From Opitutus sp. GAS368 (GTDB taxonomy: Bacteria; Verrucomicrobiota; Verrucomicrobiia; Opitutales; Opitutaceae): 44,140 bases of DNA. This document shows positions 1 through 25,300 of this stretch, one piece after another. The DNA lies in NCBI GenBank assembly GCA_945874455.1, contig CAMCHO010000017.1, forward strand, positions 1 through 44,140, given 5' to 3'. The first letter of the stretch is position 1. Each line of letters starts with the position of its first letter. The notes under the pieces were generated by a model. That model made no database searches. It worked only from the letters and a program-made list of their open reading frames with translations, and was not told where the DNA came from. The position numbers were made by a program, and so were the translations under genes.

Positions 1-1604
1 GTGCCCGGTACGCCGAACGCCGCGAGGGCCGGACCGATGCCGCGCACGACGAAGAGTTTGGCCCGCGCACCGGCGACCACGAACCCGGCGAAATGGGCGT
101 CGCCGTCGGCGCCGGTGAGCGCGCGGCTGGAAATATTGATGAGCCGCGCGCCGAGCGTGAGACGATAGACGAGGATCATCGAATCGGTGCTGAGCGCGGC
201 CTTGAACGCAGCGCCGTCATGAAAGCCGTCTGTAGTGGAAAAATCATTATCATTGCCGACGAAGAGGAAGAAATCATCCGGCGCGGTGGGGTCGAGCGCG
301 GGGGCGAGGGCGAGGCTTTCCCATTTTTCGGCGAGCGTGTTGCTGTTGCTGGAGGAGCTGTTGTTGAGCCCGAATTTCACGAGCTCGGCGTTGTCGTTGA
401 GGTTGATCAGGACAGCGGATGTGGCGGGTGTGACGGACGCGGCGAGCACGCCGTTGGGGGCGACGGCGGTGCTGGTCGTGTCGAAGGCGGTGCCGGCGAT
501 ATTCGTGGCTCCGGTGAGATCGTAGACGAGGATGGCGCGGTACAGGGAGGCGGTCGAACTGGAGCCGCGGCCGTTGCCGTCGCGCGCGAGTACGAGAAAC
601 TGGCGGCTGCTGAGCACCACGAGTTCACCGACGGAGGCGACCTGTTGCACGCCGGCTTGGGTGTAGAGGGGCAGCGGCAAGATCCACTCGCCCTTGAGTG
701 TGGCGGCGGCGGGATTGGAAATGTCGTAGGCGAGGAGGCGCGCGTGGCGGCGCAGGCTGCTGCCACCGGAGCCGCCGTCCTGGCGCGTGGCGGACTGCAT
801 GAGGGCGTAAAGCGTGCGGCCGTCGCCGGACGCGGCGAGGCCCTCGAAGCCCTGATTGTTTTCTCGCCCCGTGGTGGGCTCGCTGGGTGAAGGGGCGGGT
901 TGGCCTGCCGCAGGGTTGTCGGCGGAAAACGAGTCGCGGCCGCTGCGTTTCGGGATCAGGGCTTCGGGCGGACGGATCGCGCCGAGCAAGACCCCGGCGG
1001 CAGAGAAGCGGTAGAGGTAGGGGCCGTATTCATCGCTGATGAAGAACGAGCCGTCGGGCAGGAGGACGAGGCCCTCGGGGTCCACGGAGAGGCGACCGGT
1101 CGAGGCTTGCGGCAGCACGGGAAACCCAAGGCGGGTGCCGAGGCCCGCGGTGGTGGTCGCGGGATCGAGGGAGGTGAGGGCCGTGCCGTTCGACTCGGTG
1201 AGTTTTTTCGTGTCCGCGAGGGAAAGGCCGAGTTGGATTTGATTGGCGGCTCCGTTGGGTGCGGGGGTGAAGGAGAGGTCGAGGCGGTGGGTGCGCGGGG
1301 TGTAGTTGGTTGCCGAGCCCGCCGGGGTGATACCCCGGTCGGGCTGCGCGTAGAGGGTCCCGGTGTAGGTGCCATCGGCCGCGCGGCGCCACGTGCGCAG
1401 GTCGAGCGCGAGGCCCGAGAGCGAACCGAAGGTTTCACCGAACTTGTCCCGCTCCGCTGCGGGGATCCGGCCGACCCCGACGAGACCCTTGTGAGAAATC
1501 GTGGTGCCGCCAAGGGTGACCGTTTGGGCGGCCGCCCTGGGGGTGGCAAGGGACAGGGTGGCGAGGCCGAGCATGGCGGCGAAGGAGGGGACGGTGCGGC
1601 GCAT
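1..1604 (-). CDS. Secreted phytase-like esterase domain protein (C-terminus cut by window edge)
   Basis: The frame runs from an ATG at 1602-1604 down to the left edge without a stop, giving at least 534 residues. It opens with a signal peptide (MRRTVPSFAAMLGLATLSLA, then an AAA-QT cleavage-like site near residue 26). Residues 30-380 contain ETFGSLSGLALD, LYAQPDRGITP, LSVDPEGLVLLPDGSFFISDEYGPYLYRFS and NNQGFEGLAASGD style segments, separated by variable stretches, which is the pattern of the 'esterase-like activity of phytase' family (a beta-propeller). The last visible part (INISSR, then VVRGIGPALAAFG) begins the same C-terminal domain found in the CotH and PhoD proteins of this window. The enzyme is expected outside the cytoplasm; its substrate cannot be read from sequence. 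It is transcribed divergently from the VTC gene with about 100 bp between them. The start is chosen because it places the signal peptide at the N-terminus. Confidence 0.8.
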   Translation of the reverse strand, partial: MRRTVPSFAAMLGLATLSLATPRAAAQTVTLGGTTISHKGLVGVGRIPAAERDKFGETFGSLSGLALDLRTWRRAADGTYTGTLYAQPDRGITPAGSATNYTPRTHRLDLSFTPAPNGAANQIQLGLSLADTKKLTESNGTALTSLDPATTTAGLGTRLGFPVLPQASTGRLSVDPEGLVLLPDGSFFISDEYGPYLYRFSAAGVLLGAIRPPEALIPKRSGRDSFSADNPAAGQPAPSPSEPTTGRENNQGFEGLAASGDGRTLYALMQSATRQDGGSGGSSLRRHARLLAYDISNPAAATLKGEWILPLPLYTQAGVQQVASVGELVVLSSRQFLVLARDGNGRGSSSTASLYRAILVYDLTGATNIAGTAFDTTSTAVAPNGVLAASVTPATSAVLINLNDNAELVKFGLNNSSSSNSNTLAEKWESLALAPALDPTAPDDFFLFVGNDNDFSTTDGFHDGAAFKAALSTDSMILVYRLTLGARLINISSRALTGADGDAHFAGFVVAGARAKLFVVRGIGPALAAFGVPG

Positions 1605-1702
1605 GGCGCGGTGTTAACGCCCTCGGGGCGAACAAGTCGAATGCATTTCACTCGTATTTTTGAGTTGCGTGCGCCCACCGCTGCCGCGGAATAAATCTTC
1701 CC

Positions 1703-2554
1703 ATGTTGCTCGATAAAGCCCAGCGGCAGCGCCGCGAGATTAAATATATCATCACCGAAGATCTGGCTTTGGCGATTCGTAGCTACCTCAGCAATTATTT
1801 GGAAGCCGACGAGTTTGCGGCCGGCAAGCCGGACAATTCCTACCAGGTCCATACGCTCTATCTCGATTCCGACCAACTGGCGACGTATCGAGCGGCCAAC
1901 GAGGGCGAGCGCAACCGCTTCAAGCTGCGGATTCGTTACTACGACAATAGTGATTCTTCGCCCGTTTGTTTTGAAATCAAACGGCGGATTAACGAGGGGA
2001 TTGTGAAGCACCGCGCCCGGGTGCACCGCCATGCCGTGAGTCCGTTGCTGGCCGGTGAAAGCCCGGTGCCCGCACACCTCTTCAAGTGGAATCCGCAGCA
2101 ATGGGAAGACCTGTTGACGTTCTGGCAGTTGGTCGAGCGACTCCAGGCCGCGCCGCGCGCACACAACGCCTACATGCGCGAGGCCTATGTCAATTCCGAG
2201 GCGACCGTGCGCGTGACGCTGGATCGCTCCGTCCGCATGGGGCCCGAGTTCGGGCTCGATCTGGGCACCGACCTGGCCGACGGCATCGAGGTATTTGCCG
2301 GCACCGTGATCCTCGAGCTGAAATTTACCGACCGCATGCCGATGTGGATGATTGAGATGGTGCGAGGCTTCGAGCTGAAGAGTTCGGGTGCCGCCAAATA
2401 TGTCCAAGGCGTCGAACTTTTGGGCGAGCACAAGGTGGCCCGCCGTCTCTCTGGTTTCGAGTGGGGCAATGCCGTTGTTTCCACTGCCACGAGTGCCCCG
2501 TGGCTTGATGCTTCCGCGTCCGTCCGTGGCGCACTAGGTCCCAATCGCACATGA
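1703..2554 (+). CDS. VTC domain-containing protein (polyphosphate polymerase-like)
   Basis: The 283-residue product resembles the VTC domain, the catalytic fold of the yeast vacuolar polyphosphate polymerase and of the triphosphate tunnel metalloenzymes. Visible features fit: an early REIKYII strand, YQVHTLYLDS, the basic strands RFKLRIRYY and VCFEIKRR (tunnel-facing Arg and Lys), a central EAYVNSEATVRVTLDRSVR, and the acidic VILELKF strand near residues 210-220, followed by SSGAAKYVQGVELL. No signal peptide or membrane segment is present, so it should be cytoplasmic. The stop overlaps the start of the DUF4956 gene (ATGA at 2551-2554), indicating translational coupling. The family often sits beside DUF4956 and CotH genes, as here. 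Activity on polyphosphate is inferred from the family and is not proven for bacterial homologues of this kind. Confidence 0.85.
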   Translation: MLLDKAQRQRREIKYIITEDLALAIRSYLSNYLEADEFAAGKPDNSYQVHTLYLDSDQLATYRAANEGERNRFKLRIRYYDNSDSSPVCFEIKRRINEGIVKHRARVHRHAVSPLLAGESPVPAHLFKWNPQQWEDLLTFWQLVERLQAAPRAHNAYMREAYVNSEATVRVTLDRSVRMGPEFGLDLGTDLADGIEVFAGTVILELKFTDRMPMWMIEMVRGFELKSSGAAKYVQGVELLGEHKVARRLSGFEWGNAVVSTATSAPWLDASASVRGALGPNRT

Positions 2555-3234
2555 ATGCCCTCCTCCAAGGCGACCACGCCTCCGCCCCCACCCCTTTTCA
2601 CGCGCTGATCGTCGCCCTGACGCTGGCCTATCTCTTCGGCCAGATGATCGCCTGGGTTTATGTCTTTACGCACTCGGGCGTCTCTTATTCGCGCTCGTTT
2701 GTCGTCTCCTTAATTGTGCTGCCGGTGCTCGTGTCCCTCGTGTTGATCGTGATGTCCAATAATATCATCACGGCCTTCGGATTGATTGCGGTGTTTGCAG
2801 TGGTCCGATTTCGCAATGCACTGCGTGACACCTTGGACACCTGCTATGTGCTGGCCGTGATCATCCTCGGCACGGCGTGCGGGACCCAGAAATTTTCCTC
2901 GGCGATTGTCGGCGCCATCGCTCTCAGTGGCTTGTTCGTGTTTCTCTGGATGACGGCTTCCGGCACGCGCCACCGTTTCGATCTCATTTTGAATCTGCGT
3001 TGGACGCGGCCCGCCGCGGAATTGACGGAGGTGAGCCAGCTCCTCAACCGCCACAGTCTGCGCGTGCACATCGCCAATCAACATTTCGGAAAAGGCGCCG
3101 AAGCCGCCAATCTTTCCTATCGGCTGCTACTGCGTGATCCGGCGCGAGCCGCCGAACTTTTGAGCGAACTGTCTGAGGTGGCGGGCGTCGACCGTGTGTC
3201 GAGCGTGCAGGCGGCGGACGAATCCGAAATTTAA
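2551..3234 (+). CDS. DUF4956 domain-containing membrane protein
   Basis: The 227-residue product has an N-terminal membrane half and a soluble C-terminal half. Hydrophobic segments are visible at about residues 18-40, 49-72, 74-84 and 95-130. The stretch AFGLIAVFAVVRFRNALRDT, which joins the second and third hydrophobic blocks, is characteristic of the DUF4956 family. The tail (residues 150-227) holds a small alpha/beta domain with LLNRHSLRVHIANQH and ELLSELSEVAGVDRVSSVQ, which looks like a ferredoxin-like or ACT-like sensor fold. It overlaps the VTC gene by four bases and is followed within five bases by the membrane-fusion gene, so the three probably form one operon. Its function is unknown; it may be the membrane partner of the VTC enzyme (inference). 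Confidence 0.85.
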   Translation: MNALLQGDHASAPTPFHALIVALTLAYLFGQMIAWVYVFTHSGVSYSRSFVVSLIVLPVLVSLVLIVMSNNIITAFGLIAVFAVVRFRNALRDTLDTCYVLAVIILGTACGTQKFSSAIVGAIALSGLFVFLWMTASGTRHRFDLILNLRWTRPAAELTEVSQLLNRHSLRVHIANQHFGKGAEAANLSYRLLLRDPARAAELLSELSEVAGVDRVSSVQAADESEI

Positions 3235-3238
3235 CTCC

Positions 3239-4339
3239 ATGGACTCACGTAATCTTTCGCCGATCCCCACGCCGCCGGCCCAACGCTGGCGCGAAGTCCG
3301 TTTGCTTTACCTGCCGCGGGCGATGTTCATCGCCGCGACGCTGCTCGTCGCGTGGATGTGGAGCGGTGTGGTGGCCCCGTCGGCCATCGTGGCGGAAGCG
3401 TCCATCGTCGGCGCGGACTTGCGCGCGAATCAGGCCGGGGTGATCGCGAGTTTGAAGGTTTCACTCGGCCAAACGGTGCGAGCCGGTGAGGTGGTCGGAC
3501 ACGTGGCCGCCGCCAATCCACGGTTGCTCGACTCGACGCTCGCCGTGATCCGGGCCGAAGTCGGCATGTTGGCGGTCAGCATGGTTGGCGCGACGGATCG
3601 GCAACGGGTCGCGCTGGAATTTGAGCGGATGCAACTCGACTGGATGAACCATCGGGTGGAGCGCGCCGCCCTGCAAGGGCACTTACAGCAAGCTGAGTCG
3701 GATTTGGCGCGGGCCGAACCGCTGCATCGTGCGCGTTTGATCACCGAGGAAGTCTATGCGCAATTGAAGATTACGCGGGGCAGCTTGGTCGCCCAGTTGG
3801 AAGAGAAAAACCAATTGATCGTGCGGCTTGAGCCCGTGTTGAAAGGCATGGTTGCGGCGGATCCGCAGGCGGCTGGCTTGTCGGGCGAGTCCGCCCTGGC
3901 GGCGGCGATCAAAGTGCAGGAGGCCAAACTGCGGCTCGCGGAGGAAGAGCTTTCGCCGGTGCCACTGGTCGCGCCCATCGACGGAGTGGTCGGACTCATG
4001 CTGCGGCGTGCGGGTGAAACTGTCGTGGCGGGGGAAGTCATCTTGCGGGTCACGGCCATCAAGCCGGAGCGCGTCACGGGGTATTTGCGGCAGCCTTTGA
4101 CCATCGACCCGAAGCCGGGGATGGCTGCGGAAATTCGCACGCGCACCAATCCCGTGCAGGTGGCGGCGACGACCATTACGCACGTCAGCGCCACGTTGGA
4201 GGCCATTTCACCGACCGTGCTCGCCGCCATGCGGCTCCCGCTGGTGCCGACACCGGAGACGGCACTGCGCGTGGATTTTGCACTGCCCGCCGGTCTCGCC
4301 CTGCGCCCCGGCGAACATGTCGACGTGGTAATTCACTGA
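3239..4339 (+). CDS. HlyD-like periplasmic adaptor / membrane-fusion protein
   Basis: With the ATG at 3239 the product has 366 residues; an upstream in-frame start at 3194 would overlap the DUF4956 gene by 40 bases and add 15 unlikely residues. A short cytoplasmic tail is followed by one membrane segment (about residues 19-42, PRAMFIAATLLVAWMW). Then come a lipoyl-like half (QAGVIASLKVSLGQTVRAGEVV), a long charged helical hairpin (about residues 95-215, coiled-coil-like) and the second lipoyl half (APIDGVVGLMLRRAGETVVAGE), followed by a beta-barrel region. This is the layout of HlyD/EmrA adaptor proteins that link an inner-membrane pump to an outer-membrane channel. No transporter or outer-membrane factor is encoded next to it, so its role with the VTC and DUF4956 products, perhaps in envelope assembly, is open. 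Confidence 0.8.
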   Translation: MDSRNLSPIPTPPAQRWREVRLLYLPRAMFIAATLLVAWMWSGVVAPSAIVAEASIVGADLRANQAGVIASLKVSLGQTVRAGEVVGHVAAANPRLLDSTLAVIRAEVGMLAVSMVGATDRQRVALEFERMQLDWMNHRVERAALQGHLQQAESDLARAEPLHRARLITEEVYAQLKITRGSLVAQLEEKNQLIVRLEPVLKGMVAADPQAAGLSGESALAAAIKVQEAKLRLAEEELSPVPLVAPIDGVVGLMLRRAGETVVAGEVILRVTAIKPERVTGYLRQPLTIDPKPGMAAEIRTRTNPVQVAATTITHVSATLEAISPTVLAAMRLPLVPTPETALRVDFALPAGLALRPGEHVDVVIH

Positions 4340-4383
4340 GGGACCGCTGGGTGCGGCGACCAGAATGTCGCGGTTCCGTCGGC

Positions 4384-4412
4384 GGGGCGACATTCCTGTC
4401 GCCCCCTCTTTC
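4384..4412. terminator. Perfect 9-bp hairpin between convergent genes
   Basis: GGGGCGACA at 4384-4392 and its exact reverse complement TGTCGCCCC at 4397-4405 enclose a four-base loop (TTCC). A pyrimidine-rich CTCTTT follows on the plus strand. It lies between the ends of the convergent adaptor gene (stop at 4339) and CotH gene (stop at 4420), where a bidirectional terminator is expected. A second, weaker GCGAC/GTCGC pair sits just upstream at about 4356-4371, which suggests a repeat-type hairpin element and not a plain terminator. The T-run is short, so termination strength is uncertain. Confidence 0.6.
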
Positions 4413-4419
4413 GTGGCAC

Positions 4420-7400
4420 TTACGGCACCTCGTAAATTTCGAACAGGATGACGCCGCTCGCGCCGGCCTTGCCGGTGATTTGCGCGGTGTAAGGCCCCTC
4501 GGCGAGCGTGAGCAACAGGACGGCGTCCTTGCTATCAGAGGGCAGGGCGAATCCACCCACGGCCGCGGTGGCGGCGGCGACTTCGATCGTCGTGGCACCC
4601 GCGCTACCGCGGGTACTCCAGTCATCATTGGTCGCCACCTGCACGCTCGCCTTGTCGAATAGCGTGAGCACGGGGTCGGCCAAAGTGCCCGCCACGCCGA
4701 ACCCGCCGAGCGTGGGGCCGATGGCACGGATGAGGAGACGTTTGGGTCCGGGGCCGCGCACCACGACACCGCCGATCAATACCTCGTCGCCGCCACGCAC
4801 AAGGCCACGGGTTGAGAGGTTGAGCGTGCGGCCGATCCCGGGGTCGATCTCATAGAGCTCCGCCAAACCGACGCCGGTGCCGCTCGTGGCGCTTGAAATT
4901 TGCAGCGTGAATTGGCCCGCGGGGAGGCGGGCGAGGAGGGCGGCGTCTTTGCTCCCTTTCGCGAACGGGAATGCACCGACGAATTTGGTCAGATCGGCAA
5001 TGTCGTCGGCGTCCGGGCCGGTCTCCCACGCGCTGTTGCGGGCGAGTTCGCGACCACGGGAGTCGAGGATGCGCAGGACCGGTTGCGCGAGCGCTCCGGC
5101 GACGCCGAAACCGGTCAGGGCGGGGCCGACGGCGCGCGCGAGGTATTGCTTGCCGGCGGTGTCGTTTACGACGACGCCGGCGATCAGGATATTTTCATCC
5201 GAGCCGATGAAACCGCGGCTGGACAAGTTTGCGAGGCGCGGACGAGGGGCGAGGGGAGGGGATCGCGCGCCGCCCACCGCGGAACTCCACGTCGTGGTAG
5301 GCCCGTCCGTAGTGGTAAAATTGGGACGATAGCTGCGGGCCTGGAGATCGGCGGTGGCTGGGACGGTCACGGCGGTGGAGGACAGGCGCACTGCGTGGGC
5401 CAAGAGGCCGCCAAAGGCGCGCGGGTCGGTGCCGTCGGTGGTGTAGGCGAGCTGGGTGCCCGGGGCCGGCGTCACCACGAGGGTGCCGGCACCGGCGACG
5501 ACGGTCGGGGGTGCCGCGAAATGGTCATCAATCCAGATGGCGCGACGGGCCAGCCAAGATTTCAGCGCATCAATCTCACCCTGCCAAGCGCCGCCGAAGC
5601 GGGGTGCGTTATCCGGCCAGCGGGCGGCGTCGCGCGCGGCCGCCGCGGGACCGATTTGGGCGGCTAGAGAATCGACGAGCGTGGCGAGGCTTGGCGCGGA
5701 GAGTTCTGTGCGGCGCAGCAGTTGCCAGCGGTCTACCCACGCCTGCAGGAACTCTGGGTCTTGGGCGAGGAGGCCCCACCAACCGTAGTTCCAGAAATCG
5801 GTGGCTCCGTTGTCGCCCTGCCAGACTTCGTGGTTTTGCGACCGCGGATCACCGCCGCCCAAGGCTCGGTCAAAATCCCAGACTGGACCGGCCTGGAGGC
5901 GACCTTCGCGATCCTTGGTCATGTAGGTGCTGCGGACCAGACCATCGACGTTCATTCCAAGGACGTTCAGGATGTGGTGGTCGACCCAAGATGCGCGGTC
6001 GATGTAGTCGAGGTGCGTGCGATCTTTCCACCCGGAGGCGAGATTGGCCGTCAGGGCATCGTCGAACTGTTGAAAATAATTACTGATGTAGTCCCGTTGC
6101 GAGGGGTGCAAATCGGCGAGTTTGGGTTGGCTGACCCCGAGGGCGAAGGGCAGGCCGGGGAAGCCACGCCGCAGCTGGAAATTAAATTCGTTGCTGTCCG
6201 GCAGATCGAGTTTGAGGAGGTAGCCGCCGGTGATTTTTTTCGTGCCGAGGTCGTTGGGTGCGAGCTTCGCGAGGTCCACGCGCTTGCTGTCGATGCGCAA
6301 CGAATCGGTCAGAATGTAGATGCCCACATAGTCGCTCTGATCGAGGTCGCCGCCATTGGCGTTGAAGAACAATTCCACCATCTGGGTGCGCGGTGCCCAG
6401 CGGCCGAGCCGGTTACTCAGGGCGTAAATGAAGGCGTTGTTGAGAAACGTGCGGTCGTAATTCCAAGGACCGATCAGCGTCCAGTTCTCGAACGTGGGTA
6501 GTCCGTAGAGGGGCAGCGGGTTGTCGCGGCCCAAGGTGTCGTCGAGTCGCAGGGTGAAACTTTTCTTGGGGAAATCGGCGGAAGAGGCGCCGCGCACGTT
6601 GGTGGTAATGGAACTCAGCGCGGTCGGCGGTACCGTCATCGCGGTGTTGCCGGTGGCCGGACGAGACCACGTGTAAATCCAGCCGGGGCGCACGTTGTCA
6701 CTTTTCACGAGCGAACTGGTGCCGTGGGTGTCGATCACCATCAATGGCAGTTGGCTGGAAAACGTATCGATCCGCGCACTACCGGTCGTGGCCAACCGCA
6801 CATAGTGCGCGGTGGCGGGAAAGCCGGTGGCGAGATTGTCCGCACCGTAGATCATGGCCCGCACAATCGACGAAGTCGAAACCGTGAGGGGTCCCGTGTA
6901 GATCATCGCCGTCGGGCCGGGCTCCGGGACGGTGGCACCGGTCGTCGTGGGAGGCGCGATCACGTAGCGAATCCGCTGGCCCGCCGTCGCGCCGGACAGG
7001 GTGACCGTGATGGTGTCGGTGAACGGGCCGGACGCGCGGGAGAAGACCACGCGTTCGGTCAGCAGGAAGGTATTCGGTCCTCCATTACGCGCAGTGGGCG
7101 TCGGAGTGCGGAAAAAGCTCCGCGTCGATTCCTCGCCGGAGCCGGTGGGCTGGGTCACGCCGTAGGACACGTCGACCAATTGCGGGGGATACGCGGGGGC
7201 AAACTCGGTGGTGGCGGTGGTGCCGTCCGGTTTGATGAGGGCGAGGTAGCCGCCCTCGGCGCTCAGGACGAAATTGGTGTGCAGGGGCTTCGCAGGATCG
7301 CGGCGATTTTCGTTCGAGGCCCAGACGATCAGGTAACCGCCTGCAGGCAGCGTCACGGCGGGAAATTGCCATTTCGTTTTGAGCGCTGCGTTGTCGGTGA

Positions 7401-7605
7401 GATACCAACCGGCGAGGTTGGCCGGCGTGGCGTCCGGATTGAACACCTCGATCCAGTCCGAGAACGCGCCGTCGTTGTCGGCGTTGGTCTTCGTGTTGGC
7501 CGCGAGAAATTCGGTGATGATGGGATCGGCGCGTATGGCGCTGGGAAAACCGAGGGCGAGGGCGAGCGGGAGCAGGGCCCATGGGGGTAGCTTGGTGCGA
7601 CACAT
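4420..7605 (-). CDS. Secreted CotH-kinase protein with lamin-tail domain and two C-terminal repeats
   Basis: The start is placed at the ATG at 7603-7605, which gives a 1061-residue protein with a signal peptide (LLPLALALGF, cleavage near residue 26); the open frame continues further upstream but without any signal. Residues 28-135 form a lamin-tail domain (IITEFLAANT, DWIEVFNPDA, LAGWYLTDN). Residues 350-640 match the CotH spore-coat kinase family, with KKSFTLRL, NWTLIGPWNYDRT, YVGIYILTDSLRID and the hallmark AGPVWDFDRALGG near residue 570. A chitobiase-like C-terminal fold follows near residue 705 (LAYTTDGTDP). From about residue 788 two tandem copies of the verrucomicrobial C-terminal domain end the protein. 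CotH in Bacillus phosphorylates coat proteins; this homologue should act in the envelope or outside. It converges on the VTC-DUF4956-adaptor operon. Confidence 0.9.
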   Translation of the reverse strand: MCRTKLPPWALLPLALALGFPSAIRADPIITEFLAANTKTNADNDGAFSDWIEVFNPDATPANLAGWYLTDNAALKTKWQFPAVTLPAGGYLIVWASNENRRDPAKPLHTNFVLSAEGGYLALIKPDGTTATTEFAPAYPPQLVDVSYGVTQPTGSGEESTRSFFRTPTPTARNGGPNTFLLTERVVFSRASGPFTDTITVTLSGATAGQRIRYVIAPPTTTGATVPEPGPTAMIYTGPLTVSTSSIVRAMIYGADNLATGFPATAHYVRLATTGSARIDTFSSQLPLMVIDTHGTSSLVKSDNVRPGWIYTWSRPATGNTAMTVPPTALSSITTNVRGASSADFPKKSFTLRLDDTLGRDNPLPLYGLPTFENWTLIGPWNYDRTFLNNAFIYALSNRLGRWAPRTQMVELFFNANGGDLDQSDYVGIYILTDSLRIDSKRVDLAKLAPNDLGTKKITGGYLLKLDLPDSNEFNFQLRRGFPGLPFALGVSQPKLADLHPSQRDYISNYFQQFDDALTANLASGWKDRTHLDYIDRASWVDHHILNVLGMNVDGLVRSTYMTKDREGRLQAGPVWDFDRALGGGDPRSQNHEVWQGDNGATDFWNYGWWGLLAQDPEFLQAWVDRWQLLRRTELSAPSLATLVDSLAAQIGPAAAARDAARWPDNAPRFGGAWQGEIDALKSWLARRAIWIDDHFAAPPTVVAGAGTLVVTPAPGTQLAYTTDGTDPRAFGGLLAHAVRLSSTAVTVPATADLQARSYRPNFTTTDGPTTTWSSAVGGARSPPLAPRPRLANLSSRGFIGSDENILIAGVVVNDTAGKQYLARAVGPALTGFGVAGALAQPVLRILDSRGRELARNSAWETGPDADDIADLTKFVGAFPFAKGSKDAALLARLPAGQFTLQISSATSGTGVGLAELYEIDPGIGRTLNLSTRGLVRGGDEVLIGGVVVRGPGPKRLLIRAIGPTLGGFGVAGTLADPVLTLFDKASVQVATNDDWSTRGSAGATTIEVAAATAAVGGFALPSDSKDAVLLLTLAEGPYTAQITGKAGASGVILFEIYEVP

Positions 7606-8082: not shown

Positions 8083-8503
8083 CGGTGCTCGCTGACCGAC
8101 TGCACCGACCTGAAAACGGCGGAAGCTTGGGTCTATTTGGCGGCCCTCACCGACGCCCTGCAGCGTTGGCAACCCGCCGCTGGACGCCTCCATCACTCGG
8201 ATCGCGGCCGCCAGTATGTCGACGGCGACTACATCGCGGCGCTCCGCTCTGCCGGCATCGACCGCAGCATGAGCTGCGCTGGTAATTGCTACGACAATGC
8301 CGCCAGGGAATCGTTTTCGAGTGCCCTGAAGTCCGATCCCGGACTGGCTGAGGCGATTGCCAGTCAGCCGCAACCACACCGAGCTTGCCGTCTGCGATTA
8401 CATCGAGACCTTCTACAGAGCGAAGAGGCGCCACAACTCGCATGGTTATGTCTCCCCTGTGGTGTCCGAAAAGCAACCAACCCTAAACATCAAAGCCGCT
8501 TGA
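8083..8503 (+). pseudogene. IS3-family transposase (OrfB) remnant
   Basis: Frame starting at 8083 reads CSLTDCTDLKTAEAWVYLAA, which matches the region of the first catalytic Asp of IS3-type OrfB (usual TD-x-TY-x-T-x-x-GW-x-YLA). About 30 residues normally separating this from the second Asp are missing, and the frame runs straight into LHHSDRGRQYVDGDYIAALR and then NCYDNAARESFSSALKSD. A +1 shift near 8366 is needed to continue with ELAVCDYIETFYRAKRRHNS and the stop at 8501-8503. The internal deletion, the frameshift and the absence of the N-terminal part and of OrfA show it is dead. A related remnant lies in the opposite orientation at about 11635-11885. Confidence 0.85.
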
Positions 8504-8622
8504 ATGAGTGTCTATTTTTCGAAGCAAGTCCAGTGACCCTCTTTCAATTGCACACGCTCGGCTCAGAGGGCCGCATCTCCCCGGGGCTGGTTTGAAACGC
8601 GCGGCCGAAAAGACTGCGGACT

Positions 8623-9273
8623 ATGATTACCACAAAAGAAATCCTCCAAAACTTCGTTCATCTTGGTGCCCTTCTGTACTTTGTCTGTTTTTTATTCCGA
8701 AACCAGATTCTGCTGCGCAGTTTCGCGATGGCGGCCGACCTAGCGTATCTCATCTATTATCTAAACGCCGCCGACAAACCGTTGTGGAGTGCTGTCTTTT
8801 GGAATTTAATTATACTTCTTCTCAACGCAGTGATGCTCGTGATCATTTTCCGGGATAACCGGTCCACCGGCTTCACCGAAAACGAACTTAAGCTCTATAG
8901 TCGGTTGACTTCCATTTCGCCGCCAGAATTTAGGAAAATTGTCCGGCTCGGGAAGTGGCATCGGGCCAAAGCCGACACGGTATTGACGGTCGAAGGGGAG
9001 CCCTTGAATTCGCTCCACTATGTCCTTGAGGGCGAGTTATTGATAGAAAAGAGCGGACGCAACATTAAGGCGATGCCTTGTATGTTCGTTGGTGAAATCG
9101 CCTTTGTGACGAAGGGCCCGGCCAGCGCTACGGTTACGGTGAGGCCTGGCGCTCTTTACATTAAGTGGTCATCTGCCGATCTCGTCCGCGCCCAGTCGAA
9201 AAATGACCGACTGCGGAATGCCCTAGCGTTGATCATAAACGCGGACATGGCCAAGAAATTAGCTGAAAGTTAA
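8623..9273 (+). CDS. Bacterial Popeye-domain protein (membrane helices plus cyclic-nucleotide-binding fold)
   Basis: The 216-residue product begins with about three membrane helices (residues 9-25, 30-48 and 56-77). After a charged linker (residues 78-105) comes a cyclic-nucleotide-binding fold: LGKWHRAKADTVLTVEGEPL, LHYVLEGELLIEKSG, then FVGEIAFVTKGPASATVTV at about 155-173. This topology is that of Popeye (POPDC) proteins, which in animals bind cAMP at the membrane. The phosphate-binding cassette is close to the CAP/PKA form (G-E-x-x ... A-T) but the usual Arg before the Ala-Thr or Ala-Ala is Ser here (PASAT, residues 166-170), so nucleotide binding is uncertain. It stands alone between mobile-element remnants, and no cyclase is seen nearby. 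Family assignment is fairly sure; the ligand and output are unknown. Confidence 0.75.
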   Translation: MITTKEILQNFVHLGALLYFVCFLFRNQILLRSFAMAADLAYLIYYLNAADKPLWSAVFWNLIILLLNAVMLVIIFRDNRSTGFTENELKLYSRLTSISPPEFRKIVRLGKWHRAKADTVLTVEGEPLNSLHYVLEGELLIEKSGRNIKAMPCMFVGEIAFVTKGPASATVTVRPGALYIKWSSADLVRAQSKNDRLRNALALIINADMAKKLAES

Positions 9274-9787: not shown

Positions 9788-10216
9788 TCATCGGGGAGCT
9801 GGCGGACGTGGGGGTAGTCCCTCTTGCTTCTTCGCTGCGGCCTCCAATCTCGCGTCGGTGGCGTAGGGATTGCGCGGCATCAGTGTAGCGGGGATGGGGG
9901 GACGGCGGTCGGTGCCGGAATCGCTAGGCCCGTAATGCGCGGCGAGGTACTTGATGATCGTTTTCTGCACCGCGGGATCGAGCTTCCCGAGGCCGCCGTT
10001 GGTTTGCATCCATTCGAGCGTCGAGGTCCAGTTCGCCTCGGTGGCGCGCTGGCGCAGAAAGGTCTGCGGCGAGTGGCAGGCGATGCAGTGATTGCGGACG
10101 ATTTCCCAATCGGCTCCCATTTTCATGCCGGTCGTCGGATCGAGCGGCACTTTTTCGTTCGCTGCAAAAGCGAGACGGGTCAGAAAGGTAACGGTAATGA
10201 GGCAAAGGAAACGCAT
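9788..10216 (-). CDS. sorB: Monohaem cytochrome c, SorB-like subunit of sulfite dehydrogenase
   Basis: From the ATG at 10214-10216 the product has 142 residues; a longer frame upstream (to 10279) would overlap the molybdoenzyme gene and hide the signal peptide. Residues 1-19 are a Sec signal (FLCLITVTFLTRLAFA). One haem-binding motif, CIACH, is at residues 44-48, and a likely axial Met is in TLEWMQTNGG about 30 residues later. A class I-type helix follows (LDPAVQKTIIKYLAAHYG), then a proline-rich tail. The start lies two bases after the stop of the upstream molybdopterin gene, so the two are co-transcribed. In SorAB systems this subunit takes electrons from the sulfite-oxidising subunit and passes them to the respiratory chain. 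The cytochrome call is firm; the SorB name rests mainly on the partner gene. Confidence 0.8.
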   Translation of the reverse strand: MRFLCLITVTFLTRLAFAANEKVPLDPTTGMKMGADWEIVRNHCIACHSPQTFLRQRATEANWTSTLEWMQTNGGLGKLDPAVQKTIIKYLAAHYGPSDSGTDRRPPIPATLMPRNPYATDARLEAAAKKQEGLPPRPPAPR

Positions 10217-10218
10217 GG

Positions 10219-11553
10219 TCAGACGGCCTGGATGGCGATGCGATGGCAGGAGTTGTTCAAGTAACCTTCCGGATTCCAACCGGGCAGGATCATGGGTTGG
10301 GCGCGGCCTTGGTCATCGACCGCCCGCGCCCAGATTTCGTAGTAACCCTTCTTGGGAAGAGCCACCGTGGTGCGCCACTGCTGCCAAGCGTAGCGATTCG
10401 CGGGCTGGTCGAGTTCCGCCTTGCGCCAGGTGATTCCGAAGTCGAGCGACACCTCCGCAGAAGCCACGGCACCTTCGCCCACCCATGCATGTCCGCGCAC
10501 GGTGAGTTGCTCTGCCAGAGGGTGACTGGAGCCTGATTTCGGAAAGGTCACGAGCGACTTCACCGGCATGGCTTCGATGATCACCATGTCTTCACCCGGC
10601 ACCTTGGTACCGGGAGCCACGGGATGACGCGGCATCCGATAGGAGTGCCCGGTCATCTTTTCACCATCGTGCTCGCGGTCGCGGATCACGATTTTCTTCA
10701 CCCACTTGCCGCAAGTGGACGCAGCCCAACCGCCGAACATGAGGCGGAGTGGATGGCCGTGTTGCCACGGCAGTGGTTCGCCGTTCATGGCAAAGACGAG
10801 CAGCGACTCATCTTCCAGCGCCTTTTTGATCGGCACGCCCCGCGAGATAGCCGATTTTTTTGGATCGCCGGACAGATGCGTGTCCGCGCCGTAGTAGCCT
10901 ACGTAGACGGCATTCTTCTTCACGCCGCAGTGCCGTAAAACATCGGCGAGCCTTACGCCCGTCCACTGCGGACAACCCACGCCACCGGTCGTCCACTGGT
11001 TCCCGGTGGCGGGCGGATTGAACTCGCTGCGTCCGTTGCCGGCGCACTCGAGCACCATTTGCAGGGTGTGCGCTTGGAATTTTTCCTTCAGCTCCTTGAG
11101 TGAAAATGTCGTCGGCTGCTCGCAGCTCTCCCCGGCAATTTCTAGCGTCCATTTTTCGGGATCGAGGATCTCCGGCGTGGGTGCGAGACCATTGTTGCGG
11201 ATGAAGAGATGCTTCGCCGGCGTGATGGCATCGTCGAGCAAGTGTGCGGGCGTTTCCGCCACCAACGGTCGGTCGTTCATGACCATGAGACCTTGTTTGC
11301 CTCCGATTTGAAGTGGCTCGGTGGGTTGCGCGAGCGCGACTGGGATCAAACCCAAGGTGAGCTTGTCGCCGAAGACGATTTGCGCGCCCACGGCGGTGGA
11401 CATGGAGACCAGCCCGAGCCGGCCGAGAAAGCCCCGCCGGCTGACGGAATCTGCGCGGCGGTCCCCGAGGAGTTCCTCCGCTCGCCGGGCACCTGCGTAG
11501 TCGCGTTGGGGAAGGCCGGCCGGCCGAGTGGATTTTTTGGGCTTGGAGTTCAT
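10219..11553 (-). CDS. sorA: Tat-exported molybdopterin sulfite dehydrogenase, SorA-like
   Basis: The 444-residue product starts at the ATG at 11551-11553, preceded by AAAGG six bases upstream; the alternative start nine codons earlier lacks such a site. A Tat signal with SRRGFLGRLG is at about residues 34-43. The body fits the sulfite-oxidase fold. It has a Moco domain with the ligand Cys in VLECAGNGR (near residue 170), GGVGCPQWTGVRLADVL and LPWQHGHPLRLMFGGW, then a dimerisation domain from about residue 330 (LTVRGHAWVGEGAVASAEVS, ARAVDDQGRAQP). There is no haem domain, as expected for the SorA type, whose haem is on the separate SorB protein encoded immediately downstream. The pair would oxidise sulfite to sulfate in the periplasm. 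Related enzymes of the same fold can act on other substrates, so sulfite is the family-based choice. Confidence 0.8.
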   Translation of the reverse strand: MNSKPKKSTRPAGLPQRDYAGARRAEELLGDRRADSVSRRGFLGRLGLVSMSTAVGAQIVFGDKLTLGLIPVALAQPTEPLQIGGKQGLMVMNDRPLVAETPAHLLDDAITPAKHLFIRNNGLAPTPEILDPEKWTLEIAGESCEQPTTFSLKELKEKFQAHTLQMVLECAGNGRSEFNPPATGNQWTTGGVGCPQWTGVRLADVLRHCGVKKNAVYVGYYGADTHLSGDPKKSAISRGVPIKKALEDESLLVFAMNGEPLPWQHGHPLRLMFGGWAASTCGKWVKKIVIRDREHDGEKMTGHSYRMPRHPVAPGTKVPGEDMVIIEAMPVKSLVTFPKSGSSHPLAEQLTVRGHAWVGEGAVASAEVSLDFGITWRKAELDQPANRYAWQQWRTTVALPKKGYYEIWARAVDDQGRAQPMILPGWNPEGYLNNSCHRIAIQAV

Positions 11554-11634
11554 AAATTGCCTTTCGTGAGGGCCGCCCACGGGCGATGGACCGTCGAGGG
11601 ATCGCGGCTTATCCGGGTGGTCTCTTGGGTTTTA

Positions 11635-23464: not shown

Positions 23465-24874
23465 ATGCGCGGCTGCGAGATTGCCTTGGCGCTTGCCTCG
23501 CGGGGGCCTCGCAACACGGTTTCAGTCGTGGTTCGCAATCACGTTTTCCGCGCAGGTCGGCTTTGGTTCGTGGCGCTGCTGGTCAGTCCGTTGATTCTAT
23601 CCGCCCAAACGGCGTCTCCCTTTATCAGCGGTGCCTGGTGCGGGAACGTGACTCCGACCAGTGCCTCGGTCGCCATCCGGCTGAATGCCCCCGGCCTCCG
23701 CGTGCGCTTGCGGGTGAGCCCTCAGAGCGGGTTATCGCCCGCAGTGTTTTCGCCGGTGCTAACCACGGTCGCCGAGTCAGGAAACACGGTGAAACTCGAC
23801 GCCGCGGGCCTCCAGCCATCGTCGGACTACGGCTACGAAATTGAGGTGGACGGAGTGGTGCGCACGGACACGCTGGCGCGCGGAAAATTCCGCACGTTTC
23901 CGCAGGGCGCCGGTTCGTTTCGCTTGGCCTTCTCTTCCTGTGGCGATTCCCTTGACCCCGATCAAGGGGCCTATGAGGCCATCCTCGCCGAGCAGCCGCT
24001 GCTCTTCGTGCACCTGGGGGACTTTCATTACAAAGATAAGAACACGACTGTCGCTGAGGATTACCGTTGCAATTACGACGAGGCTCTCAACAGCCGCAAT
24101 TCAGGTGCGCTCTACCGCGGTGTTCCGCTGGCCTACATGTGGGACGATCACGATTTCACGGGAGACGATAGCAACGGTACCGCCATCGGTGCCGCCACGG
24201 TGCGCAGCGTGTATCGCGACACGGTACCGCACTACCCAATCACCGTCGCGGGCGGCACGATCGCGCAAGCTTTCACTGTCGGCCGGGCGCGGGTGATCAT
24301 GACGGATTTGCACAGCGCGGCCTCCCTGGCAGCTTCGGCCGAGTCGGCGACCAAATCGCGCCTCGGAGCCACCCAGAAAGCGTGGTTCAAGCAAGCGTTG
24401 CTCGCGGCGCGCGACGCCGCGTTTCCGTTGATTATTTGGGTCAGCACGTCGCCTTGGATCGGAGCGGCCCAATTGGGCGTTGATTCGTGGGCGGGGTTTT
24501 CGACCGAACGCGCCGAGCTCGCAAATTTCCTCCGAGATAACCGGATCAAGAATCTGTTGATACTCTCCGGCGACATGCATGCCCTCGCGTATGACGACGG
24601 CAGAAACTCCGACTACGCCGTCGGGGGCGGCGCGCCTCTCGTGGTCCTCCACGCCGCCCCGCTCACGCGCCTAGGCGGGCCCAAAGGCGGACCCTATGCG
24701 GCGGGTCCGCTCATCGGGATTCAGCAATACGGGTTGCTCGATGTGACCGACACCGGTGGTCCGTCGGTGCACGTGCGCTACAGCGGCAAGCGGGTCGGCG
24801 AAGGGACCAAGCTGTCGTTTCAATTTATCGCTTCCACGGCCGGCATCGTCGCGGACAGCATCGGCACCGGGTGA
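23465..24874 (+). CDS. PhoD-like metallophosphatase, ended by an in-frame TGA
   Basis: From the ATG at 23465 the product has 469 residues; a GTG at 23528 would begin closer to the signal peptide (FRAGRLWFVALLVSPLILSA) and may be the true start. A fibronectin-like N-terminal domain (WCGNVTPTSASVAIRLNA, GLQPSSDYGYEIEVDG) precedes the PhoD-type catalytic domain. That domain contains FSSCGDSLD, FVHLGDFHYKD (near 182), AYMWDDHDFTGDDS (near 226) and LILSGDMHALAYDD (near 367), carrying the metal-binding Asp and His residues. The enzyme should hydrolyse phosphomonoesters or diesters outside the cytoplasm. The stop TGA at 24872-24874 is in frame with a C-terminal domain immediately downstream, so the full protein was probably about 611 residues. 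The catalytic part itself looks complete. Confidence 0.85.
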   Translation: MRGCEIALALASRGPRNTVSVVVRNHVFRAGRLWFVALLVSPLILSAQTASPFISGAWCGNVTPTSASVAIRLNAPGLRVRLRVSPQSGLSPAVFSPVLTTVAESGNTVKLDAAGLQPSSDYGYEIEVDGVVRTDTLARGKFRTFPQGAGSFRLAFSSCGDSLDPDQGAYEAILAEQPLLFVHLGDFHYKDKNTTVAEDYRCNYDEALNSRNSGALYRGVPLAYMWDDHDFTGDDSNGTAIGAATVRSVYRDTVPHYPITVAGGTIAQAFTVGRARVIMTDLHSAASLAASAESATKSRLGATQKAWFKQALLAARDAAFPLIIWVSTSPWIGAAQLGVDSWAGFSTERAELANFLRDNRIKNLLILSGDMHALAYDDGRNSDYAVGGGAPLVVLHAAPLTRLGGPKGGPYAAGPLIGIQQYGLLDVTDTGGPSVHVRYSGKRVGEGTKLSFQFIASTAGIVADSIGTG

Positions 24875-25300
24875 CTTTCCGCTGCCGCGAGCGGAGCCGA
24901 TCGCGCTTTCGTGAATGTCTCGACTCGCGGTCGAGTCGCGACCGCAGGTGACGCCCTCATCGTGGGATTTGTCGTCGGTGGCACCGCGCCCCGTACGATC
25001 TTGGCGCGCGCTGTCGGGCCTTCGCTGGCCGTTTTTGGCATCATGGATGCGTTGTCCAGACCCATGCTCACGCTCCATCGCGGCAACATCGTCATCGCGA
25101 GTAACGATGACTGGACGCTCACCGACGCGGCGCGGTTGTTTACGGCCTTCGAACGGGTCGGGGCTTTTCGCCTGCTCGGTGGTGCCAATCCGGATGCAGC
25201 CCTCCTGACGACGCTGGCTCCCGGTGCCTATACGCTGCAGGTCACCGGGGGCGGTGGCGCGGTGGGCACCGTCCTCCTTGAAGCCTACGACGTACCGTAG
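24875..25300 (+). pseudogene. Detached C-terminal domain of the PhoD-like protein
   Basis: Directly after the TGA at 24872-24874, the same frame continues with LSAAASGADRAFVNVSTRGR and then VATAGDALIVGFVVGG, ARAVGPSLAVFGIMDALSRP and LAPGAYTLQVTGGGG, ending with YDVP and a TAG at 25298-25300. This is the same domain as the tandem repeats of the CotH protein. A GTG at 24911 could start it separately, but there is no signal peptide and no well-placed ribosome site, so separate translation is unlikely. The junction GTG-stop-LSA suggests a CGA (Arg) to TGA change. Confidence 0.7.

Follow-up and report, generated by a model that had tools for sequence, protein, structure and literature searches.

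What does a periplasmic adaptor of the HlyD type do in an operon with a polyphosphate-polymerase-like enzyme of the VTC family and a DUF4956 membrane protein? The question is raised by a stretch of 44,140 nucleotides from Opitutus sp. GAS368 (Verrucomicrobiota; GenBank assembly GCA_945874455.1, contig CAMCHO010000017.1, positions 1 to 44,140 of the forward strand), the whole of which we call the window. It is well supported that this operon recurs across loci and that its adaptor belongs to a separate, dedicated type, and the three proteins may together make and export a phosphate polymer. The locus holds the following genes:

1..1604, minus strand: phytase-like protein, open at the window edge (PF13449, match 3-1604, E 1.3e-38)
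1703..2554, plus strand: VTC-domain polyphosphate-polymerase-like enzyme of 283 amino acids (PF09359, E 2.2e-36)
2551..3234, plus strand: DUF4956 membrane protein (PF16316, E 5e-11)
3239..4339, plus strand: EmrA/HlyD-type periplasmic adaptor of 366 amino acids (HlyD_3, E 1.9e-7; Biotin_lipoyl, E 1.1e-5)
4420..7605, minus strand: CotH-kinase-domain protein with an N-terminal Lamin Tail Domain, LTD (PF08757, E 1.4e-41; LTD, E 4.1e-14)

The VTC, DUF4956 and adaptor genes are a single tight plus-strand unit. The ATGA at 2551-2554 contains both the VTC stop codon and the DUF4956 start codon, and four bases (not five, as an earlier sequence-only reading of the locus had it) separate the DUF4956 stop codon at 3232-3234 from the adaptor ATG at 3239; an alternative in-frame GTG at 3194 would make the adaptor gene overlap that of DUF4956. 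That reading had also proposed one three-gene unit with a convergent CotH gene and a divergent phytase-like gene; the arrangement over 1-7605 agrees with ours, and the unit is confirmed by Pfam, by the sequence and by the recurrence of the gene order. The adaptor gene stops at 4339 and the convergent CotH frame at 4420; the latter frame is open up to 8379, with a signal-peptide-like start, judged by eye, at 7605. In the source draft genome (5.07 Mb), VTC is matched once and CotH twice.

Searches for VTC (PF09359) matched 33 of 177 genomes from the order and 77 of 387 from the phylum, and five gene families were labelled in the fetched surroundings using profiles built for this analysis. The order sample (33 VTC places) and the rest of the phylum sample (79 places), together set A, were selected by VTC and are unbiased. 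The adaptor gene came next after co-directional VTC and DUF4956 genes in 20/28 pairs of the order sample and in 33/66 of the rest of the phylum sample (53/94 over both), so that the adaptor is not absent from most such loci, a possibility that the sequence-only reading had raised. A contig set, for which 32 adaptor-linked DUF4956 proteins served as queries against named genome contigs, comprised the best 80 of 436 DUF4956 relatives; being biased to that type, it shows how tight the linkage is within it and not how frequent it is. Three of the 80 loci had no full-length DUF4956 frame and were dropped, after which VTC was upstream in 77/77 and HlyD next in 75/77. Most of these loci are labelled Verrucomicrobia, Kiritimatiellae, Opitutia, Lentisphaerae or subgroups, some only bacterium or PVC group bacterium, and two are outliers by label (L178, Sumerlaeota; L249, Pseudomonadota). 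The phylum sample around the genome of L249 formed a second group, in which VTC was found in 174/377 genomes; 40 VTC places were fetched, two without a VTC frame call were dropped, and HlyD lay within three genes of VTC in 24/38 loci. With 31 duplicates removed, the three sets gave 120 distinct loci with the order VTC, DUF4956, HlyD on one strand, which is more than chance would produce; such repeated co-occurrence is what the sequence-only reading had named as support for its view. Pfam confirmed HlyD_3 in 48/52 adaptors checked. Cultured bearers of the operon include Pelagicoccus mobilis (L210) and Pontiella sulfatireligans (L239).

The window adaptor is predicted to have an N-terminal helix, lipoyl/barrel-sandwich halves, a long alpha-hairpin and a beta-barrel (mean predicted local distance difference test, pLDDT, 87.9), and EmrA and MacA are the top matches of the model in the PDB (best, EmrA 4tko, E 9.4e-16). 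Its hairpin carries R-x3-L-x6-T (RxxxLxxxxxxT), and RLT is described as a form of the TolC-docking motif (PMC3391258). A first tree of 79 rows held 44 VTC-linked adaptors, 29 other HlyD proteins from eight of these genomes and six named E. coli adaptors; the 44 were taken from 76 non-redundant adaptors (of 115), at most 15 being named by hand and the rest being every second row, with L268 left out. All 44 lay on one side of a single branch (Shimodaira-Hasegawa-like approximate likelihood ratio test, SH-aLRT, 99). In a second, more careful tree of 51 rows, from which four long-branch other rows were left out, 20 hand-picked VTC-linked adaptors were split by one branch (100/100) from those of resistance-nodulation-division (RND), ATP-binding cassette (ABC) and major facilitator superfamily (MFS) systems. 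Both trees set the VTC-linked adaptors apart, and do not group them with adaptors of unrelated ABC or MFS pumps. Homologues of EmrB, MacB, AcrB (a 633-residue part), MdtO, AaeB, YbhF or YbhS lay within 1.5 kb of only 2/161 VTC-linked adaptors (not de-duplicated, split genes included), compared with 27/29 other adaptors. One exception, at L056, belongs to a second, downstream HlyD-MacB pair, and the other, at L050, is on the opposite strand. No ABC, MFS or RND pump was called by Pfam beside the window adaptor.

A TolC-type outer-membrane channel gene (OEP) comes next after the adaptor in 65/120 distinct loci (25/53 in set A, 32/45 in the contig set and 8/22 in the second group). It is on the same strand in 20/33 loci of the rest of the phylum sample, with one more on the other strand, and in 54/75 of the contig set, with two on the other strand and three adaptors at contig ends. 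Pfam confirmed OEP in 21/26 channels checked, and six open frames elsewhere in the window genome match OEP. Downstream of DUF4956 in 13 adaptor-less loci that were inspected, seven (L098, L099, L102, L107, L108, L110, L115) have a secreted barrel matching Porin_O_P, the phosphate-selective porin family; these loci all come from one taxonomic family of the class (f29), which has eight VTC genomes. The others include one TPR protein and one laminin-G-type protein, four loci being outside the scan, and at L040 a DUF2490-type barrel follows DUF4956. That different outer-membrane proteins occupy this one position is consistent with a route out of the cell, though Porin_O_P members may, we assume, be general porins. 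Variant arrangements were also seen. At L214 the order is permuted to HlyD, OEP, VTC, DUF4956, which suggests that these genes move as a set of four, and at L292 and L295 VTC lies beside an opposite-strand DUF4956 gene, with OEP at both and HlyD at L295. Adaptor-type and non-adaptor-type VTC loci occur within one genome in G259, G309, G339, G352, G370, G391, G482 and G504.

The window VTC protein scores 126 bits against PF09359 (cut-off 23), and its K14, R76, R78, K93, R159, R170, E205 and K232 align with K200, R264, R266, K281, R361, R373, E426 and K458 of yeast Vtc4. These catalytic positions are invariant across 39 aligned proteins, except K14 (at least 90%); the Vtc4 numbering, and the catalytic role of positions other than R264, R266 and E426, are our assumption. 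VTC was the sole domain called in this protein (E up to 0.1), SPX not being among the calls, and a DUF202-type membrane domain, which we take to be a feature of the eukaryotic VTC complex, was called in neither the VTC nor the DUF4956 protein of the window. A mutant at Vtc4 R264, R266 and E426 is named in a study of the yeast complex, which is thought to couple synthesis with translocation and has a channel lined by basic residues (PMC9911596). The DUF4956 model (pLDDT 78.6) has five longer helices and then an ACT-like ferredoxin-fold domain, with the invariant residues R86-F-R88...R92-D93..D96 at or after the end of the third helix. Its structural matches (Foldseek, VIA), to ACT-like folds, cover mainly residues 142-227, the membrane part having no match among these. 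PPK1 is also present in 16/24 chosen VTC genomes, so a second storage polymerase is not obviously needed there.

We propose, with belief and doubt evenly balanced, that polyphosphate or a similar polymer is made and translocated by VTC-DUF4956 and then exported by the adaptor and an outer-membrane channel, as one whole chain. VTC and DUF4956 would form a coupled inner-membrane unit, in which VTC, like yeast Vtc4, would use a cytosolic nucleotide donor to polymerise phosphate, and the growing chain would cross the inner membrane through DUF4956. The adaptor would be seated on DUF4956 in the periplasm and docked to a TolC-like outer-membrane factor, whose gene is adjacent in many relatives and putatively in trans in the window genome, and the polymer, most likely polyphosphate, would exit the cell. 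The VTC-DUF4956 pair would thus stand in for the ABC, MFS or RND pump of a tripartite exporter; the tripartite exporters that we know of carry a pump where the polymerase would stand here. The exported polymer may act in the same surface pathway as secreted CotH kinases. That the system is a polyphosphate secretion system feeding the surface, with the polymer as phosphoryl donor or acceptor for these kinases, seems to us decidedly unlikely.

A number of results weigh against this proposal. The core pair can do without the adaptor, since none comes next in 40/93 VTC-DUF4956 pairs of set A. The window operon has no OEP gene, and only 4/20 adaptors of the order sample are followed by one. The tip motif occurs in 40/115 adaptors against 16.9 expected from shuffles, which makes it weak as a general mark of VTC-linked adaptors. 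DUF4956 resembles MgtC-type proteins with an ACT-like domain (PMC12345266), which are not known to be polymer channels, and our analysis showed no relatedness between it and the yeast VTC channel. PPK1 was not found in the draft window genome, where VTC might serve storage. The enzyme's product, a channel role for DUF4956, the docking, the export and the CotH step are inferences.

The distribution of CotH belongs with these points. Within 6.5 kb of VTC, CotH was found at 12/54 adaptor loci versus 40/57 others in set A and at 8/24 versus 11/14 in the second group (27/77 versus 1/3 in the contig set), short contigs lowering all local counts. Because CotH is rarer near adaptor loci in set A and the second group, the adaptor and CotH seem rather to substitute for each other downstream, and a physical link between them is unsupported. 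The trans-envelope machine of the sequence-only reading, joining the polymerase to a secreted kinase, accordingly gains support on its outer-membrane side, where OEP stands beside many adaptors, and not in its link to the kinase. Across whole genomes CotH does accompany VTC, in 74/77 VTC genomes versus 26/310 without VTC (phylum sample) and 148/174 versus 40/203 (second group); by genus the counts are 51/54 versus 11/142, this collapse being the sole correction for phylogeny. CotH is present somewhere in 39/40 genomes with adaptor-type loci. This association is partly general or inflated (a bias of genome size or life style), because the control family Phytase-like is enriched too (15/40 VTC genomes versus 2/40 without); the CotH signal is still stronger than the control, at 40/40 versus 3/39 of known status in the same genomes, from a list read by eye. 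Co-directional VTC, DUF4956 and CotH genes follow one another in 17 places, and LTD proteins lie near 17/54 set A adaptor loci. Seven large neighbours scanned as a possible common partner shared no family, and an apparent CotH-VTC fusion of 1684 amino acids in L119 is an artefact of overlapping open frames.

Among the other explanations, we consider it unlikely that the three genes serve a surface polysaccharide pathway as its accessory or regulatory module, a role that SIR_1592-1594 seem to have for Pel in Streptococcus intermedius, and in which VTC-DUF4956 would act in phosphate metabolism or signalling and the adaptor and OEP would export polysaccharide or another product. In Gram-positive bacteria (streptococci, clostridia and bifidobacteria), Pel loci carry accessory genes for a VTC-type polymerase, DUF4956 and CotH (PMC7112168), and a Clostridium perfringens locus holds VTC-domain and CotH genes together (PMC2879425); the sequence-only reading had treated the co-occurrence of the three families as known. 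In S. intermedius, mutants of SIR_1592 and SIR_1594 (CotH) have altered Pel levels and reduced aggregation; SIR_1592, which we infer to be the DUF4956 gene, has an MgtC-like membrane part and an ACT domain (PMC12345266). Against such a module, neither Pel families nor glycosyltransferases were called among 25 window frames, the rest of the genome not being searched, or among 20 neighbour proteins of 15 loci with VTC, DUF4956 and CotH in order, although the locus tables label five families and sugar genes near adaptor loci were not systematically searched. Those neighbours include one sugar-type epimerase (L146) and several housekeeping proteins, among them glutamine synthetase, MnmE, adenylosuccinate lyase and RNase PH.

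Rather unlikely, in our judgement, is a system in which the periplasm is the main destination of the polyphosphate or related phosphoryl carrier that VTC-DUF4956 supplies, and in which the adaptor, with no continuous tube to the outside, acts as a tether for an envelope enzyme or helps to shape the membrane. The adaptor-less pairs of set A, the 17 places with CotH directly next, the lack of OEP in the window operon and a tip motif that is not general would all suit it, but it leaves the OEP genes after more than half of the adaptors, and an EmrA-like fold with a long hairpin, harder to account for. It is very improbable that the adaptor serves an ordinary efflux pump and stands beside VTC-DUF4956 by chance or through shared regulation. 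Adaptors are common, with 11 PF16576 matches in the window genome, but the adjacency in unbiased and DUF4956-selected loci, the single clade and the near absence of pumps lead us to reject this as a general account.

The proposed exporter can be compared with several known systems. With the eukaryotic VTC complex (Vtc1/Vtc3/Vtc4) it shares the catalytic family, the Vtc4 active-site residues and a polymerase next to a membrane protein; unlike that complex, the window enzyme has no called SPX or other domain, the membrane partner comes from a different Pfam family, DUF4956, and the operon has a periplasmic adaptor, joined by an outer-membrane channel in relatives. EmrAB-TolC and MacAB-TolC are similar in adaptor fold, in the pairing of adaptor and OEP seen in relatives and in the RLT-type motif of the window adaptor, but differ in their pump and in adaptor clade. 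Synthase-dependent exopolysaccharide systems (Alg, Bcs, Pel) couple a polymerase to inner-membrane translocation and outer-membrane exit; here the enzyme is a VTC tunnel enzyme and not a glycosyltransferase, and the proposed conduit is HlyD plus OEP. The Gram-positive Pel accessory set (SIR_1592-1594) has the same three families, with a secreted CotH and an MgtC-like/ACT membrane protein, but is contiguous with pel genes and comes with no mention of an adaptor or OEP in the available parts of the source, whereas the window has all three families without adjacent pel genes and with CotH convergent, not co-directional. In Pontiella, ppk and ppx genes are reported and exponential-phase cells were negative for polyphosphate stain (PMC7356697), which neither supports nor excludes export. 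Among the matches listed from the open-licence literature, none showed VTC or DUF4956 plus an adaptor or OEP as one system; one of them (PMC10434189) has both DUF4956 and HlyD.

The divergent phytase-like gene is probably a neighbour and not part of the system. Among the stretches searched, a near-full-length relative lies beside VTC only in the window and at L100, a locus of the same genus, and we reject, as a general feature, the sequence-only suggestion that it adds a phosphate-ester activity to the system. A C-terminal module, perhaps a surface-sorting domain, is common to the phytase-like protein (1-1604), the CotH protein (4420-7605) and a short frame (24911-25300) that directly follows a PhoD-like phosphatase gene (23465-24874). 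Beyond the locus, the window holds an integrase-core (rve) transposase-like fragment at 8137-8595, adjoining the CotH gene (match under the curated cut-off), a Popeye-domain (POPDC1-3) protein with a cyclic-nucleotide-binding match at 8623-9273, and a sulfite-dehydrogenase-like pair at 9788-11580 (SorA and SorB models matched under their cut-offs).

As far as the available text goes, the authors of the 2025 S. intermedius study found the three genes in synteny only at the Pel locus (PMC12345266), and our results extend the VTC-DUF4956-CotH set beyond such loci. If the proposed export is correct, it would represent a bacterial machine that couples phosphate-polymer synthesis to export over both membranes with a polymerase in the pump's place, would give a role to the uncharacterised DUF4956 family and would explain why VTC and CotH occur together in genomes even when their genes lie apart. 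The phosphate source for extracellular phosphorylation would then become testable and, were the polymer indeed secreted to serve CotH kinases, this would answer where extracellular bacterial kinases obtain high-energy phosphate.

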